A DNA stretch of 64,000 nucleotides, from contig NZ_SOMG01000030.1 of assembly GCF_004402045.1 (NCBI RefSeq), forward strand, positions 186,001 to 250,000. Direction: 5' to 3'. Shown here piece by piece: positions 34,376-64,000 of this stretch (the first letter of the stretch is position 1; each line of letters opens with the position of its first letter). The notes under the pieces were generated by a model, which saw only the letters and a program-made list of their open reading frames with translations, had not been told where the DNA came from and did not search any database. This stretch comes from Lelliottia nimipressuralis (lineage in GTDB: Bacteria; Pseudomonadota; Gammaproteobacteria; Enterobacterales; Enterobacteriaceae). A program made the translations under genes and the position numbers.

Positions 34376-35356
34376 ATGCTTGATTATGCCCATCGCCAGC
34401 ACCGTTCCGATCGACGTCGCCTGTTTTTGCTGGTGCTGTTGCTCATTGTCGCCGCGGGTGTAAGCCTCTGCGCCGGCGACAGATGGATAGGGCCCGGAAG
34501 CTGGTGGGGGCCTGACGGGCAGCTCTTCGTCTGGCAAATTCGTCTACCGCGCACCGTCGCGGTGATTCTGGTAGGTGCCTCGCTGGCGCTGTGCGGTACC
34601 ATTATGCAGGCGTTGTTTGATAACCCGCTGGCGGAGCCCGGGCTGCTCGGCGTGTCGAACGGCGCAGGCGTGGGGCTGATTGCGGCGGTGATGCTGGGCG
34701 GGGGAGAACTCTCCGGATGGGGGATTAGCCTGAGCGCTATTCTCGGCGCATTAGTGATAACAGCGATCCTTCTTCGCTTCGCCAGACGGCACTTATCCAC
34801 CAGCCGCCTGCTGCTTGCCGGCGTGGCGCTGGGGATAATCTGCAGCGCGCTGATGACCTGGGCGGTCTACTTCTCGACATCCTTTGACTTGCGCCAGCTG
34901 ATGTACTGGATGATGGGCGGCTTTGGCGGCGTTGACTGGCACCAGGGATGGCTAATGGCGCTGCTGGTACCGGTTATCGCGTGGGCTGCCCTGCAGGCGC
35001 AGCCGCTGAATATGCTCGCGCTGGGTGAAACCTCCGCCCGCCAGCTCGGGATGCCAATAGGGTTCTGGCGTAATGTGCTGGTCATCGCCATTGGCTGGCT
35101 GGTCGGCGTTAGCGTCGCCCTGGCGGGCGCGATTGGCTTTATCGGTCTGGTTATTCCGCACATGCTGCGGCTATGTGGCCTCACGGACCATCGAACCTTA
35201 CTTCCGGCCTCGGCTGTTGCCGGGGCCGTCACGCTGCTGGTCGCCGATATCATCGCCCGGCTTGCCCTGACAGCCGCAGAGCTACCCATTGGCGTGGTGA
35301 CCGCCACGCTGGGCGCGCCGGTATTTATCTGGCTACTATTAAAAGCTGGACGTTAA
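34376..35356 (+). CDS. btuC: Vitamin B12 ABC transporter permease
   Basis: BtuC is the inner-membrane channel of the BtuCDF cobalamin importer. The 326-residue FecCD-family protein has about ten membrane segments and the conserved motifs [20 protein letters not shown] and [17 protein letters not shown], the latter being the coupling helix that meets BtuD. It ends [15 protein letters not shown]. No strong ribosome site is visible, but the start fits the family. btuE follows after 35 bases. Confidence 0.95.
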
Positions 35357-60061: not shown

Positions 60062-60691
60062 TCAGTATTTAGCGGGAAGTTTGTTGATTCTAATAAGCCT
60101 GCCGTCTTCCATTTCGATAAATCCACCGGTTTTTAAATCTGCCAGAATGCGCATCACACCGCTGCGGGAAAGCTGGGTTTTCTCCCTGATATACCTTTCC
60201 GCCGTGACGCCCAGTCGATAGCTCTCTTCCTCCTCCATCAGCTTCACAAGCTGCTGGCGAATCATCTCATACGCCGTCGGCGCGCCCTGCGGCATCACGT
60301 TGTTATAAAGACGACTATAAACAAACATGAGCTGTTTAGAGAGCAGCCCCCATAGTGCCTTTTCTTTGATAATTTCATTCACCCGTTCGGTGGTGAGCGT
60401 CCCTATCAGACAAGGGCTAACGGTCTTAATATAATCATTAAAATAGATATCGGTGAGGTTAGCGAGGCCGAACAGGCCGGGGCTACGGGCCGTAGACAGC
60501 ATCATGTCATCACTTCTTCTGTAGATGGCGATCGTTCCCTCAAGAATTAAATAGCACATGCCCTGACCGTTGATTTGCAAATCCAGCCGTTCACCGCGAG
60601 CAGTACGTCGCGTTGTGCAATCAGGCAACAGGTAAGAAATAAGCTCTTGCGCGTAGGGGGAACCCCGTTGAGACTGTTCTGGAAGGGACAT
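60062..60691 (-). CDS. IprA/YaiV-like winged-helix regulator (first paralogue)
   Basis: This 209-residue protein has a cyclic-nucleotide-binding-like beta-roll in its N-terminal half (GERLDLQINGQGMCYLILEG, about 35-55) and a C-terminal winged helix (YIREKTQLSRSGVMRILADL then GGFIEMEDGRLIRINKLPAKY). That ending closely matches E. coli YaiV/IprA, a regulator of peroxide resistance in Salmonella. The CRP allosteric residues are not obvious. The ATG at 60691 lacks a good ribosome site. It is 69 bases downstream of its paralogue, on the same strand. Confidence 0.85.
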   Translation of the reverse strand: MSLPEQSQRGSPYAQELISYLLPDCTTRRTARGERLDLQINGQGMCYLILEGTIAIYRRSDDMMLSTARSPGLFGLANLTDIYFNDYIKTVSPCLIGTLTTERVNEIIKEKALWGLLSKQLMFVYSRLYNNVMPQGAPTAYEMIRQQLVKLMEEEESYRLGVTAERYIREKTQLSRSGVMRILADLKTGGFIEMEDGRLIRINKLPAKY

Positions 60692-60760
60692 GGTAGCCGA
60701 CAACCTTAAAAATAACCTGGCTAATTATAGCGCTTCTCCTGTGAGCAGGCACGCTGGCTA

Positions 60761-61420
60761 TCAATATTTTCGCGGCAGATGGTGAACGTCAAGCAGCACA
60801 CCACGCTCCATGGTGATGTACTTCCCGGTGCGTAATTCCGCCAGTATTCGCATGATCCCACTTCGTGAAAGATAGGTCCGGCTTTTGATATACGCTGCCG
60901 CGGTAATATTTTGCCGTATTGCATCCGGTTCCTGCATGAGTTCAACAAGCTGAAAGCGAATGATGTCGTAGGCCGACATTTGCGAAATTTGGGCACAGTG
61001 CTCATATACCCGCGAAGCGGTATAAATCAGCAGCTTCGAAAAATGCTCCCATAAGTTTTGCTGTGCCACCACATGATTAAAACGTTCCAGCGAAACGGCT
61101 GCAATTTCTGATGTTTCCAGTGCCCTGACATAAAGATGCTCAGAGGAAAACTGACTGCTCACGCCGAGAATAAAGGGTGATGATTCAGAATTTAGCACAA
61201 TGCCGTCGCCGCGGCGGTGTAAGGCCACGCAGCCCTGGGTAAGTAAAAAACACTGACGAATATCGTTTTGATAATAATGGACGATATCACCTTTTGACAC
61301 AATCCGTCTTTCTGCAGAGGGAAGGATGTTATCAATTATTTTTTCAATATGCTCAAAAGGTTTAACACCCAACACGGTGGAGTGTTCTTTGGTTAATTCA
61401 GGTGCCATTCGCGTGTTCAT
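60761..61420 (-). CDS. IprA/YaiV-like winged-helix regulator (second paralogue)
   Basis: This 219-residue protein shares the plan of its neighbour at 60062: a beta-roll sensor-like half (VSKGDIVHYYQNDIRQCFLL) and a C-terminal winged helix (YIKSRTYLSRSGIMRILAEL then GKYITMERGVLLDVHHLPRKY). The start at 61420 has GAGG 6 bases upstream, so it is preferred to an ATG at 61432. It is divergent from the fimbrial pilin gene, and three 16-bp inverted repeats lie between them. Control of the fimbriae is inferred, not shown. Confidence 0.85.
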   Translation of the reverse strand: MNTRMAPELTKEHSTVLGVKPFEHIEKIIDNILPSAERRIVSKGDIVHYYQNDIRQCFLLTQGCVALHRRGDGIVLNSESSPFILGVSSQFSSEHLYVRALETSEIAAVSLERFNHVVAQQNLWEHFSKLLIYTASRVYEHCAQISQMSAYDIIRFQLVELMQEPDAIRQNITAAAYIKSRTYLSRSGIMRILAELRTGKYITMERGVLLDVHHLPRKY

Positions 61421-61441
61421 CAGATACCTCATTCACTGATT

Positions 61442-61458: not shown

Positions 61459-61507
61459 GCATAGAGAATTATCTTAAAAAACAGCATGTCAGGGAATGAT
61501 TTCAGCG

Positions 61508-61523
61508 GGTCTAATAATAGACC
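61508..61523. promoter_or_regulatory. Inverted-repeat operator candidate, copy 1
   Basis: GGTCTA-ATAA-TAGACC is a perfect 16-bp inverted repeat. It is the copy nearest the divergent regulator gene and shares its right half TAGACC with two further copies in this gap. Confidence 0.7.
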
Positions 61524-61572
61524 AGAAGACGGTTGTGGCCTAATTTTATGAATTATAAGAAATTGCATCTTT

Positions 61573-61588
61573 GGTCCAAAAATAGACC
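61573..61588. promoter_or_regulatory. Inverted-repeat operator candidate, copy 2
   Basis: GGTCCA-AAAA-TAGACC is the second copy, with one mismatch between its arms, 65 bases after copy 1. Confidence 0.68.
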
Positions 61589-61645
61589 CGGGAAGACGTA
61601 AATAAGGTATTCCCCAATAGGTATGTTTTATTTTTGTTAAGGATG

Positions 61646-61661
61646 AGTCTACAGCTAGACC
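61646..61661. promoter_or_regulatory. Inverted-repeat operator candidate, copy 3
   Basis: AGTCTA-CAGC-TAGACC is the third copy, 73 bases after copy 2, with five of six arm positions paired. It is the copy nearest the fimbrial promoter; outer TTAAGG/CTTAA bases extend the symmetry. Confidence 0.68.
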
Positions 61662-61776
61662 TTAAAATAGATTGTGCGCGGAAAAAGAGTTGTATAAATT
61701 TTGACTCGTCAGCAGGGCTGATCCGGATTGTACTACACAAGCCGCAAGTGGTTTTTATTTAATGAATGACAGGCAG

Positions 61777-61784: not shown

Positions 61785-61868
61785 GGGCCAGATGCAGTAT
61801 GGTGCTGGAACATATCAGCGCCATCGCCCAATTCCAGTAATGAATAAATCGATACAGAGTGTGATGTG

Positions 61869-62399
61869 ATGAAAAAGAATATAATGATGGTAATGCTGGC
61901 AATAAGCGCCGTGCTGCCGCTAAGTCCGGTTTTCGCTGCGGCAGGAACGGTTAATTTTAACGGGAATATTCTTGATTCTGCCTGCGATGTTGATATCGCC
62001 TCTCAGAACCAGGTGGTTGTGCTGGGCGATTATTATAAGACGGAATTCCCCTCGACGGGAGCAAGAACAGCGGCAACTCAATTCAATATTGTCTTGAAAA
62101 ACTGCCCGGTGACGGTGACTAACGCCAAAGTACGTTTTGACGGTACGCCGGATGCCACCAATGCCAGCCTGCTGGCTATCGATTCATCCGTTCCGGGGGC
62201 GGCAACGGGCGTGGCGATTAACCTGATGACGGCGGATAAGGCAGACTTACCGCTGCACGGCAGCAATAGCCATACTTATACGCTGAGCAGCACCGCCGAC
62301 AATACGTTGAACTTCTACGCACAGTATATTTCAACCGCGGCAACCGTGACCATGGGGCCGGCTAACTCGGTGGCAAACTTCTCTGTGGTTTATAACTAA
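61869..62399 (+). CDS. Type 1-like fimbrial major subunit (pilin)
   Basis: This 176-residue precursor is a chaperone-usher pilin. It has a signal peptide ending SPVFAAA (about residue 23), the GTVNFNGNI start typical of FimA-like subunits, a Cys pair (DSACDVD near 38 and KNCPVTV near 78) for the usual disulfide, and a C-terminal NFSVVYN with the penultimate Tyr used for chaperone recognition. The ATG at 61869 is preferred to the GTG one codon earlier. It heads the operon pilin-chaperone-usher. Confidence 0.92.
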   Translation: MKKNIMMVMLAISAVLPLSPVFAAAGTVNFNGNILDSACDVDIASQNQVVVLGDYYKTEFPSTGARTAATQFNIVLKNCPVTVTNAKVRFDGTPDATNASLLAIDSSVPGAATGVAINLMTADKADLPLHGSNSHTYTLSSTADNTLNFYAQYISTAATVTMGPANSVANFSVVYN

Positions 62400-62444: not shown

Positions 62445-62456
62445 ATGAGGTATAAA

Positions 62457-63134
62457 ATGCGTTTTATCAAAACCGCCGGATTGGCTGTGGCACTGTTATC
62501 GCTAATGATAACGACCGCCAGTGCCGGGGTAATTATTGGCGGCACCCGAATTATATTTGATGGTGCAAAAAAAGAAGCATCAATCAATATTAATAATCCT
62601 GACCCTACGCCCTGGTTAATTCAGTCATGGGTAGAAATGCAGGACGGGAGTTCTGGTAAGACGCCATTTATTATTACCCCACCGCTCTATCGTCTGGACG
62701 GTGGGCAAAAAAACCTTGAGCGTATTGTCATGACGGGAGCACTGCCTCAGGGGCAGGAGAGCTTATTCTGGCTGAATATCAAAGCCATTCCGTCCGCAAC
62801 GAAACAGATGAACGCTCTGCAAATTGCGGTAAAAACGCGTATTAAACTGATTTACCGACCGGATGGCCTGCGTGCGTCAACACCAGAGGAGCAGGCGGAT
62901 AAATTAACCTGGCAACGAACAGGTAATCAGCTTCAGGTAACTAATAGCACGCCCTACGTCATTAATTTTAATGAGATTACCGTAGGGGATAAAAAACTTG
63001 ATGATGTGACGTATGTTTTACCAGGCACTTTCGCGCGGTTCACATTACCGCCGGGGAGCAGCGGCAATACGCTCACGTTTAAAATTATTAACGACTATGG
63101 CAGCCCAGGGAGCACGCACCAGGCCCGTTTGTGA
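62457..63134 (+). CDS. Periplasmic fimbrial chaperone
   Basis: This 225-residue precursor folds pilin subunits by donor-strand complementation. The signal peptide ends TTASAG (about residue 24). The PapD-like N-terminal domain shows GGTRIIFDGAKKEASININN, with the subunit-anchoring Arg, and PWLIQSWVE; QESLFWLNIKAIPS and KTRIKLIYRPDGL mark the family signature. GAGG lies 6 bases before the ATG at 62457; an ATG at 62445 overlaps that ribosome site. Confidence 0.94.
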   Translation: MRFIKTAGLAVALLSLMITTASAGVIIGGTRIIFDGAKKEASININNPDPTPWLIQSWVEMQDGSSGKTPFIITPPLYRLDGGQKNLERIVMTGALPQGQESLFWLNIKAIPSATKQMNALQIAVKTRIKLIYRPDGLRASTPEEQADKLTWQRTGNQLQVTNSTPYVINFNEITVGDKKLDDVTYVLPGTFARFTLPPGSSGNTLTFKIINDYGSPGSTHQARL

Positions 63135-63178: not shown

Positions 63179-64000
63179 ATGACAACGTTAAATACAAAGA
63201 GGCGGCCTGCGCGCCTGGCGACGCTTATTGCCTTAGCGCTTGCAGGTCACTCACCGACGCTATATGCCAGTGAAACATTTAATACAGAACTGGTTGAGCT
63301 GGATAATCCCGGTATGGGCAAAGCTGATTTATCGGCCTTTGAATCTGGCTCTCAGGCAGCGGGAACGTATCGCGTTGACGTTATTCTCGACGACCAGTTA
63401 ATGGATACCCTTGATATAACCTTTACTGCGCTGAAAACCGACAGCGGTAATGAGGTATTGCAGCCTTGCCTGAGCATCGATCAATTAAAACAGTGGGGCG
63501 TCAGAACCGCGCTATTTCCTCAGCTCGCTTCAGGCAAGCCGGGATGTGCGGATCTGCAGGCTATTCCGCAGGCCAGCACCGATTTTCAGTTTGGTGCTCA
63601 GCGTCTGGTGATAAGCATTCCTCAGGCGGCAGTCGATCTGCCAGCGAGGGGCTACGTGTCGCCACAAATGTGGGACGAAGGAATAACGGCGGCCATGCTG
63701 AATTACAGCCTGAGCGCCGCAAACAGCCGGGCGAAAACAGGGCAGGGTGCCAGCAGCGCCAGCCAGTACGCGAACCTGCGTCCGGGGGTCAATATCGGGC
63801 CGTGGCGTTTTCGCAATTATACCACCTGGTCACGGGAGGCCACCGGGCAGAATAAATGGGACAGCGTGTACACCTACGCACAGCGCGCCGTGATCCCGCT
63901 TAAGGCCCAGCTCACGCTTGGCGACAGCTCCACACCTGCGGATGTGTTTGACGGTATCCCGTTTCGCGGTGGTCAACTGGCCTCGGACGATGACATGCTG
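63179..64000 (+). CDS. Outer-membrane fimbrial usher, 5' part (cut by window end)
   Basis: The frame is open from the ATG at 63179 to the right edge, giving 274 codons of a protein that normally has about 830. A signal peptide ends near TLYAS (residue 31). The FimD/PapC N-terminal domain follows: ETFNTELVELDNPGMGKADLSAFE, a Cys pair (QPCLSID and PGCADL), and the start of the barrel with NLRPGVNIGPWRFRNYTTW and TLGDSSTPADVFDGIPFRG. It is the third gene of the fimbrial operon; further subunit genes should follow outside the window. Confidence 0.93.
   Translation, partial: MTTLNTKRRPARLATLIALALAGHSPTLYASETFNTELVELDNPGMGKADLSAFESGSQAAGTYRVDVILDDQLMDTLDITFTALKTDSGNEVLQPCLSIDQLKQWGVRTALFPQLASGKPGCADLQAIPQASTDFQFGAQRLVISIPQAAVDLPARGYVSPQMWDEGITAAMLNYSLSAANSRAKTGQGASSASQYANLRPGVNIGPWRFRNYTTWSREATGQNKWDSVYTYAQRAVIPLKAQLTLGDSSTPADVFDGIPFRGGQLASDDDML

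Follow-up and report, generated by a model that had tools for sequence, protein, structure and literature searches.

Three inverted repeats between a tandem pair of HTH_46 regulator genes and a pilus operon in Lelliottia nimipressuralis: probable operators of the adjacent regulators

The DNA considered here, referred to as the window, is a stretch of 64,000 nucleotides from Lelliottia nimipressuralis (contig NZ_SOMG01000030.1). A 433-bp gap in this window separates two tandem regulator genes, whose products are called RegA and RegB, from a divergent pilus operon, and holds three copies of a 16-bp inverted repeat (S1, S2, and S3), which are treated here as candidate operators of these regulators. 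The features at the core of the locus are the following:

60062..60703, minus strand: RegB, tandem HTH_46 paralog with the helix SRSGVMR; its open reading frame begins with TTG, and the ATG at 60691 is the likelier start
60761..61432, minus strand: RegA, regulator of 223 residues with a predicted CRP/FNR fold, an HTH_46 domain, and the helix SRSGIMR
61508..61523, no strand: S1, GGTCTAATAATAGACC, of the form GGTCTA-N4-TAGACC, just upstream of the predicted regulator promoter
61573..61588, no strand: S2, GGTCCAAAAATAGACC, of the form GGTCCA-N4-TAGACC, the middle copy
61646..61661, no strand: S3, AGTCTACAGCTAGACC, of the form AGTCTA-N4-TAGACC, just upstream of the predicted pilin promoter
61866..62399, plus strand: pilin with a Fimbrial domain, first gene of the pilus operon

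The presence of the three palindromes is confirmed, and their number far exceeds chance expectation. The first-pass annotation of this DNA had placed inverted repeats at 61508, 61573, and 61646, with start-to-start spacings of 65 and 73, and a re-reading of the sequence finds them exactly there. The whole window contains four matches to GGTCTAN4TAGACC at up to two mismatches (the fourth, at 34864, carries two), against a mean of 0.93 and a maximum of 4 in 100 shuffles, only one of which reached four or more. Within the gap, three sites are found at up to one mismatch, against 0.0006 on average and never more than 1 in 5000 dinucleotide shuffles. A test free of any motif likewise recovered near-palindromic 6-N4-6 words there, exactly three in number and belonging to a single family; a family of three arose in none of 2000 shuffles.

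Frequent occurrence at unrelated places had been named in the same annotation as a ground for doubt, and near-exact copies proved to be rare outside the locus. The 4.88-Mb genome holds exact matches to RGTCTAN4TAGACY at three places, namely S1, S3, and a position on contig C8 upstream of the gene pdeA. At two mismatches from GGTCTAN4TAGACC, 67 places are found in this genome; weak matches are thus commonplace, and information can be drawn only from near-exact ones. Across the bacterial family, sampled with one genome per genus, the exact site is present in 8 of 119 genomes, this one included, and the eight foreign exact sites (L022–L028 and L030) are isolated, with no HTH_46 gene or pilin operon seen alongside by eye. 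Within the genus, 43 of 61 genomes carry the exact site; among the 75 sites listed for these genomes, a hand count assigns 52 to the pilus gap, 19 to the region upstream of pdeA, and 4 to other places.

Other genomes also keep the motif at this locus, a point on which the initial suggestion of an operator had been made to depend. Two sets of loci, which overlap in genomes, were compared: 14 loci found by searching named genomes for RegA, and those of the 61 genomes of the genus. Three gap sites are present in 13 of the 14 named-genome loci (Enterobacter species, K. michiganensis, and K. grimontii), and the one locus without them (L016) has a RegA match covering only the last 111 residues. The 61 genomes yielded 34 relatives of RegA at 54% identity or more, 30 of which came as loci; at up to two mismatches to RGTCTAN4TAGACY, three sites are found in 29 of these 30 and two in the remaining one (L090). 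The other four relatives have two exact sites (L121), one site with one mismatch (L122), or none (L123 and L124), L123 being on the same contig as L016. At this last locus, the truncated RegA stands beside a different fimbrial gene and the sites are lost, with RegB still open. The search for an E. coli counterpart of the gap found no match.

Across the 29 three-site loci, positions 2–4, 6, 7, and 11–15 of S1 are invariant and positions 8–10 variable. All four central positions of S2 vary, and its position 12 is G in 4 of the 29, while the centre of S3 is nearly constant (CAGC). The distance between S2 and S3 is 72–75 bp in most loci and 93, 110, 111, or 115 bp in six. Helical phasing of these two sites was considered and rejected, as only some of the six longer spacings are whole turns away.

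Both regulators carry the HTH_46 domain (PF15977), scoring 91.1 bits in RegA and 83.9 bits in RegB against a cut-off of 29.3. According to its structure model, RegA is a member of the CRP/FNR superfamily by fold, with an N-terminal beta-roll, a long dimer helix, and a C-terminal winged helix. The cyclic-nucleotide-binding domain (PF00027) remains below its cut-off of 27.5 bits in both proteins (22.3 in RegA and 18.1 in RegB). A single-sequence fold prediction of RegB reached a pLDDT of only 38 and was not used, and the search for PDB relatives by sequence gave two matches to NCK2 (E 0.075 and 0.081), neither of them credible. RegA-like and RegB-like proteins form two clades with moderate support in the tree (85/68 and 87/92).

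Besides this pair, the genome encodes a further HTH_46 protein with the helix SRSVVAE (L018, C2:123272-123472), whose gene lies beside an apparent autotransporter end; similar helices occur in many genomes of the genus. The largest number of HTH_46 hits per genome is ten, in both G019 and G041, which represents a large expansion of the family.

The resemblance to CRP extends from the protein to the site. In addition to the fold, the register of the recognition helix corresponds to R180..R185 of CRP (aligned by eye): the helix of RegA, at residues 190–202 (R-S-G-I-M-R), starts with SR, and the operator RGTCT-N6-AGACY retains G2 and T3. The 16-bp inverted repeat likewise leaves six bases between five-base halves, as in TGTGA-N6-TCACA. 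On the other hand, the inner bases are C4-T5-A6 here and G4-A5 in the CRP box, E181 of CRP is replaced by Ser, the DNA-binding domain is HTH_46 instead of the Crp HTH model, the cyclic-nucleotide domain of RegA is below the Pfam cut-off, and the regulators are tandem paralogs. CRP itself was considered as the binder and rejected, base 4 being C and not G.

We regard it as likely that S1–S3 are operators of the adjacent CRP/FNR-fold protein RegA, and probably also of its partner RegB. The strongest evidence supporting this interpretation is that the HTH_46 helix and the half-site change together across genera, a covariation which, like the sites, their conservation, and the fold of RegA, was computed. 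In other genera, helices of the form SRS(S/T)IMK replace SRSGxMR, and the half-site TACAC replaces TAGAC. Thus, three loci from three other genera (L185, L201, and L203) have GGTGTA-N4-TACACC near the place of S1, and the helix SRSSIMK instead of SRSGIMR. A further set was provided by the genus of G019 (12 genomes, nine of them with hits, and 13 loci), where all 8 loci whose first gene has S/T182 and K185, numbered by their CRP equivalents, carry a perfect TACAC palindrome (7 of 7 when the already known G019 is left out).

Paralogs can differ in the same manner. The SRSGTMR paralogs of G184 and G180 are associated with perfect TAGAC palindromes, and G180 holds the TAGAC and TACAC kinds together in one genome. 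G184 also has a protein with the helix SRSCAMR, associated with AGTCCA/TGGACT, and another with SRSGTMK, associated with a TAGAC-like site with one mismatch. Altogether, S/T182 and K185 are found in 10 of the 11 loci with an exact TACAC palindrome, and the exact TAGAC gaps observed have G182 in every case and R185 in all but one (L139); residue 182 is therefore a better predictor of base 4 than residue 185.

Among the 89 family-level loci (L171–L259), 10 match RGTCTAN4TAGACY at up to two mismatches, several of these being TACAC variants. The exact TACAC pattern occurs in 33 of the 119 family genomes, and its coordinates coincide with the HTH_46 loci in hand only for G003, G019, G061, and G084 (with L290–L299 partly read). 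Where HTH_46 loci of the genus lack a divergent pilin gene (L125, L126, L130–L136, L138, and L140), no site lies within 600 bp at up to two mismatches. A second palindrome, CCAGGAATGTTCCTGG or near it, lies 36 bp upstream of the RegA-like start in L302–L304, and is kept in these three loci of one genus.

The first-pass annotation had proposed that one or both of two IprA/YaiV-like proteins bind the repeats. Binding by the adjacent regulators is supported by inference, helix and half-site changing together, but these proteins are not IprA itself: they score 70.8 and 71.4 bits with the NCBIfam IprA equivalog (NF008810), far below its cut-off of 359, and are HTH_46 paralogs instead.

Which of the two proteins would read the operator was approached by comparing tandem pairs, in 52 rows in which two or more loci appear twice. 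At residue 182, the first and second genes show G/G in 40 rows, S/T in 4, S/S in 2, S/A in 1, G/S in 3, G/M in 1, and Y/Y in 1. Whenever the first gene has S182, the second has S, T, or A182 together with K185 (7 of 7 rows). One genus with a mixed pair (SRSGIMA in A and SRSSIMK in B) has a hybrid site, with one TACAC-type and one TAGAC-type half, in all three of its species, with one mismatch in the third. Taken from sequence comparison, this suggests that RegA and RegB both read the same operator.

A RegA homodimer binding alone, with RegB having another target or modulating RegA, is a serious possibility, although we would put it somewhat below even. RegA is encoded directly beside the gap, and RegB copies found without RegA (L133 and L134) have no neighbouring site; against this, the helix of RegB is nearly equal to that of RegA (SRSGVMR versus SRSGIMR) and covaries with it, and the hybrid site of the mixed-pair genus also counts against RegA acting alone. 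The operator could otherwise be read by the pair, as a RegA–RegB heterodimer or through interchangeable subunits, with one protein on each half-site. The hybrid site of the three species agrees with this, as does the fact that both helices carry S/T/A182 and K185 in tandem TACAC loci even though the RegA-like and RegB-like clades are separate. However, competing homodimers could produce the same pattern, and single HTH_46 genes with no tandem partner in view are also found with TAGAC sites (L127–L129). Reading by the pair is held to be possible but doubtful, and is rated slightly lower because the hybrid comes from a single genus, whose gap is conserved as a whole, and because the remaining mixed pairs, L125 and L126, lack both a site and an adjoining pilin gene.

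The positions of the sites relative to the predicted promoters bear on how the regulators may act. The remaining features of the locus are these:

61468..61473, minus strand: predicted -10 of the regulator promoter, GATAAT, from sequence, conserved in the alignment
61491-61496, minus strand: -35-like TTCCCT of the regulator promoter, with a 17-bp spacer to GATAAT
61541..61551: IHF-core-like TAA-N5-TGA between S1 and S2; in 27 of 29 loci it keeps this position, following S1 by 17 or 19 bases
61624..61640: TGTT-N8-GTTAA, with an 11-bp direct-repeat spacing and, in 24 of 29 loci, 5 bp between its end and S3
within 61670-61677, plus strand: weak -35 of the pilin promoter, from sequence
61693..61698, plus strand: predicted -10 of the pilin promoter, TATAAA, from sequence, conserved in the alignment
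62445..63134, plus strand: PapD-type chaperone
63179..64000, plus strand: usher, truncated by the end of the window (847 residues in the genome)

The element at 61624..61640 could be an ArcA-type direct repeat, and is listed as a candidate only. Beyond the window, the pilus operon continues with an adhesin matching an MrkD-like receptor-binding domain, another fimbrial subunit, and a LuxR-type regulator. This LuxR-type (GerE) regulator gene follows the pilus operon on the same strand (L318 5961-6614). The comparison of TAA-N5-TGA with IHF sites used the core consensus as quoted in PMC7861041.

In 28 of 30 loci, 47.5 bp separate the centre of S1 from the regulator -10. Between the centre of S3 and TATAA[AT], the distance is 43.5 or 44.5 bp in 20 of 30, this word being absent nearby or placed elsewhere in the other ten. 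S1 and S3 are thus both just upstream of the -35 regions of their promoters, and for this reason activation of both divergent promoters, including positive autoregulation, would be the likeliest action. Binding, dimer make-up, the sign of regulation, and looping are what we infer from these data: a dimer would dock on each 16-bp inverted repeat, as CRP does on TGTGA-N6-TCACA, with the arginine equivalent to CRP R180 reading G2 of each half, and the residues equivalent to CRP 182 and 185 setting base 4 (C in TAGAC and G in TACAC sites). S2 may serve to keep the three sites together as one array, with the DNA bent between S1 and S2.

A second candidate target is pdeA, a c-di-GMP phosphodiesterase gene outside the window. 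The exact site AGTCTATAAATAGACT upstream of it (C8:145198-145213; L031 1501-1516) begins 93 bp ahead of the start codon, and its end is separated by 5 bp from a downstream promoter-like pair, TTGATT-N17-TATTAT. The product comprises MASE1, a GGDEF domain that lacks its motif, and an EAL domain in which the catalytic residues appear, by eye, to be present; its best E. coli matches, covering 23% of the query at 67–68% identity, are annotated pdeA, and the gene is preceded by two tRNA-Ala genes. At up to one mismatch, the site is found at the same place in 33 of the 58 genomes of the genus having that upstream region, and in several of them (G132, G159, and G166 among others) its halves are kept while the centre and surroundings differ. 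At this threshold it is present in 21 of 30 genomes with RegA versus 12 of 28 others (Fisher p 0.06), the association giving p 0.04 at zero mismatches and 0.006 at up to two, all uncorrected for kinship. Since the association is weak and these values are uncorrected, pdeA is proposed only tentatively as a member of the regulon.

A more far-reaching model joins both proposals: a preferred RegA–RegB heterodimer, each subunit on one half-site and with helices and half-sites co-evolving, would link pili to c-di-GMP breakdown through pdeA. As a whole, it is put forward as a conjecture that is considerably more likely to fail than to hold.

Several observations weigh against the adjacent regulators being the readers of S1–S3. 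The eleventh TACAC locus (L179) has the helix SRSGVMK, with its palindrome 424 bp upstream, and two other SRSGVMK loci (L313, and L301 from the genus of G084) have no site. No site was found either at L124, where a RegA with 58% identity and the helix SRSGIMR faces a divergent pilin gene, or at HTH_46 genes of other subfamilies adjoining pilin genes (L137, L180, L234, and L255). On the RegA side, the tree unites the TACAC proteins in a single clade (95/91), and the switch there therefore happened once. A centre 44.5 or 43.5 bp from the -10, as for S3, is not a classical class I or class II place of CRP. Finally, the pdeA site also occurs in genomes counted without RegA, at up to one mismatch in 12 of 28.

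This last point would be expected if a third, genus-wide protein bound the sites in the pilus gap and at pdeA, RegA and RegB being bystanders. One of these RegA-less genomes that have the pdeA site, G156, also lacks the SRSG helix in both of its HTH_46 proteins, all hits considered, showing only SRSVVAE and ARSTIIK (the hits of G146, G138, and G126 were partly read). Nevertheless, the site follows the HTH_46 helix, even between paralogous loci of one genome, near-exact sites are almost restricted to two places, and those RegA-less, site-bearing genomes that are included in the pdeA gene tree (30 genomes) fall inside its RegA-bearing groups, which would fit a recent loss of RegA. A third protein is consequently considered unlikely.

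Binding by a GntR/HutC-type repressor of the NagR/DasR kind is highly improbable. The dre boxes of these proteins, which belong to an unrelated family, have half-sites similar to those described here, but dre half-sites abut or overlap, whereas six bases separate GGTCT and AGACC in S1–S3, and no GntR gene was recognized by name or position among the open reading frames around the gap. That the repeats work as RNA or DNA hairpins can practically be dismissed: each could give a 6-bp stem with a 4-base loop, but all three are upstream of both predicted promoters at fixed distances, and the outermost pair is often mismatched (AGTCTA..TAGACC being common).

Among known systems, IprA (YaiV) shares the HTH_46 domain with RegA and RegB, and one report describes an influence of IprA on fim expression in Salmonella (PMC12502779). 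Identity to the IprA-like protein and the L018 protein of this genome is, however, 24–25%, and that IprA-like protein has the helix ARSTIIK and no such site at its gene. KpfR from Klebsiella pneumoniae (kpfRABCD) is a parallel in arrangement: according to PMC7861041, its gene encodes a helix-turn-helix regulator beside a type-1-like chaperone-usher cluster with an IHF-like site near the promoter. Unlike the minus-strand regulators described here, which face plus-strand pilus genes, kpfR is a single gene co-transcribed with the pilus genes, and the text consulted names a Fur box instead of this palindrome (PMC7861041). In the open-licence literature, queried for YaiV/IprA, KpfR, PF15977, the half-sites, tandem regulators, and Enterobacter fimbriae, no operator was found named for HTH_46 proteins in the titles or displayed abstracts. 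The CRP-like geometry, the likely base-reading residues, the specificity apparently shared by the pair, and the tentative pdeA target go beyond the initial annotation of this locus.

HTH_46 proteins are numerous in this bacterial family, with up to 10 hits per genome, and the pairs of site and helix described here amount to a recognition code that can be tested in a CRP-type family, including a natural switch, a genome with both versions, and a hybrid that occurs naturally. With the regulators arranged in tandem, the sharing of one operator by paralogous CRP-type subunits can be tested as well. If pdeA does belong to the regulon, a single switch would govern both pilus production and c-di-GMP turnover.
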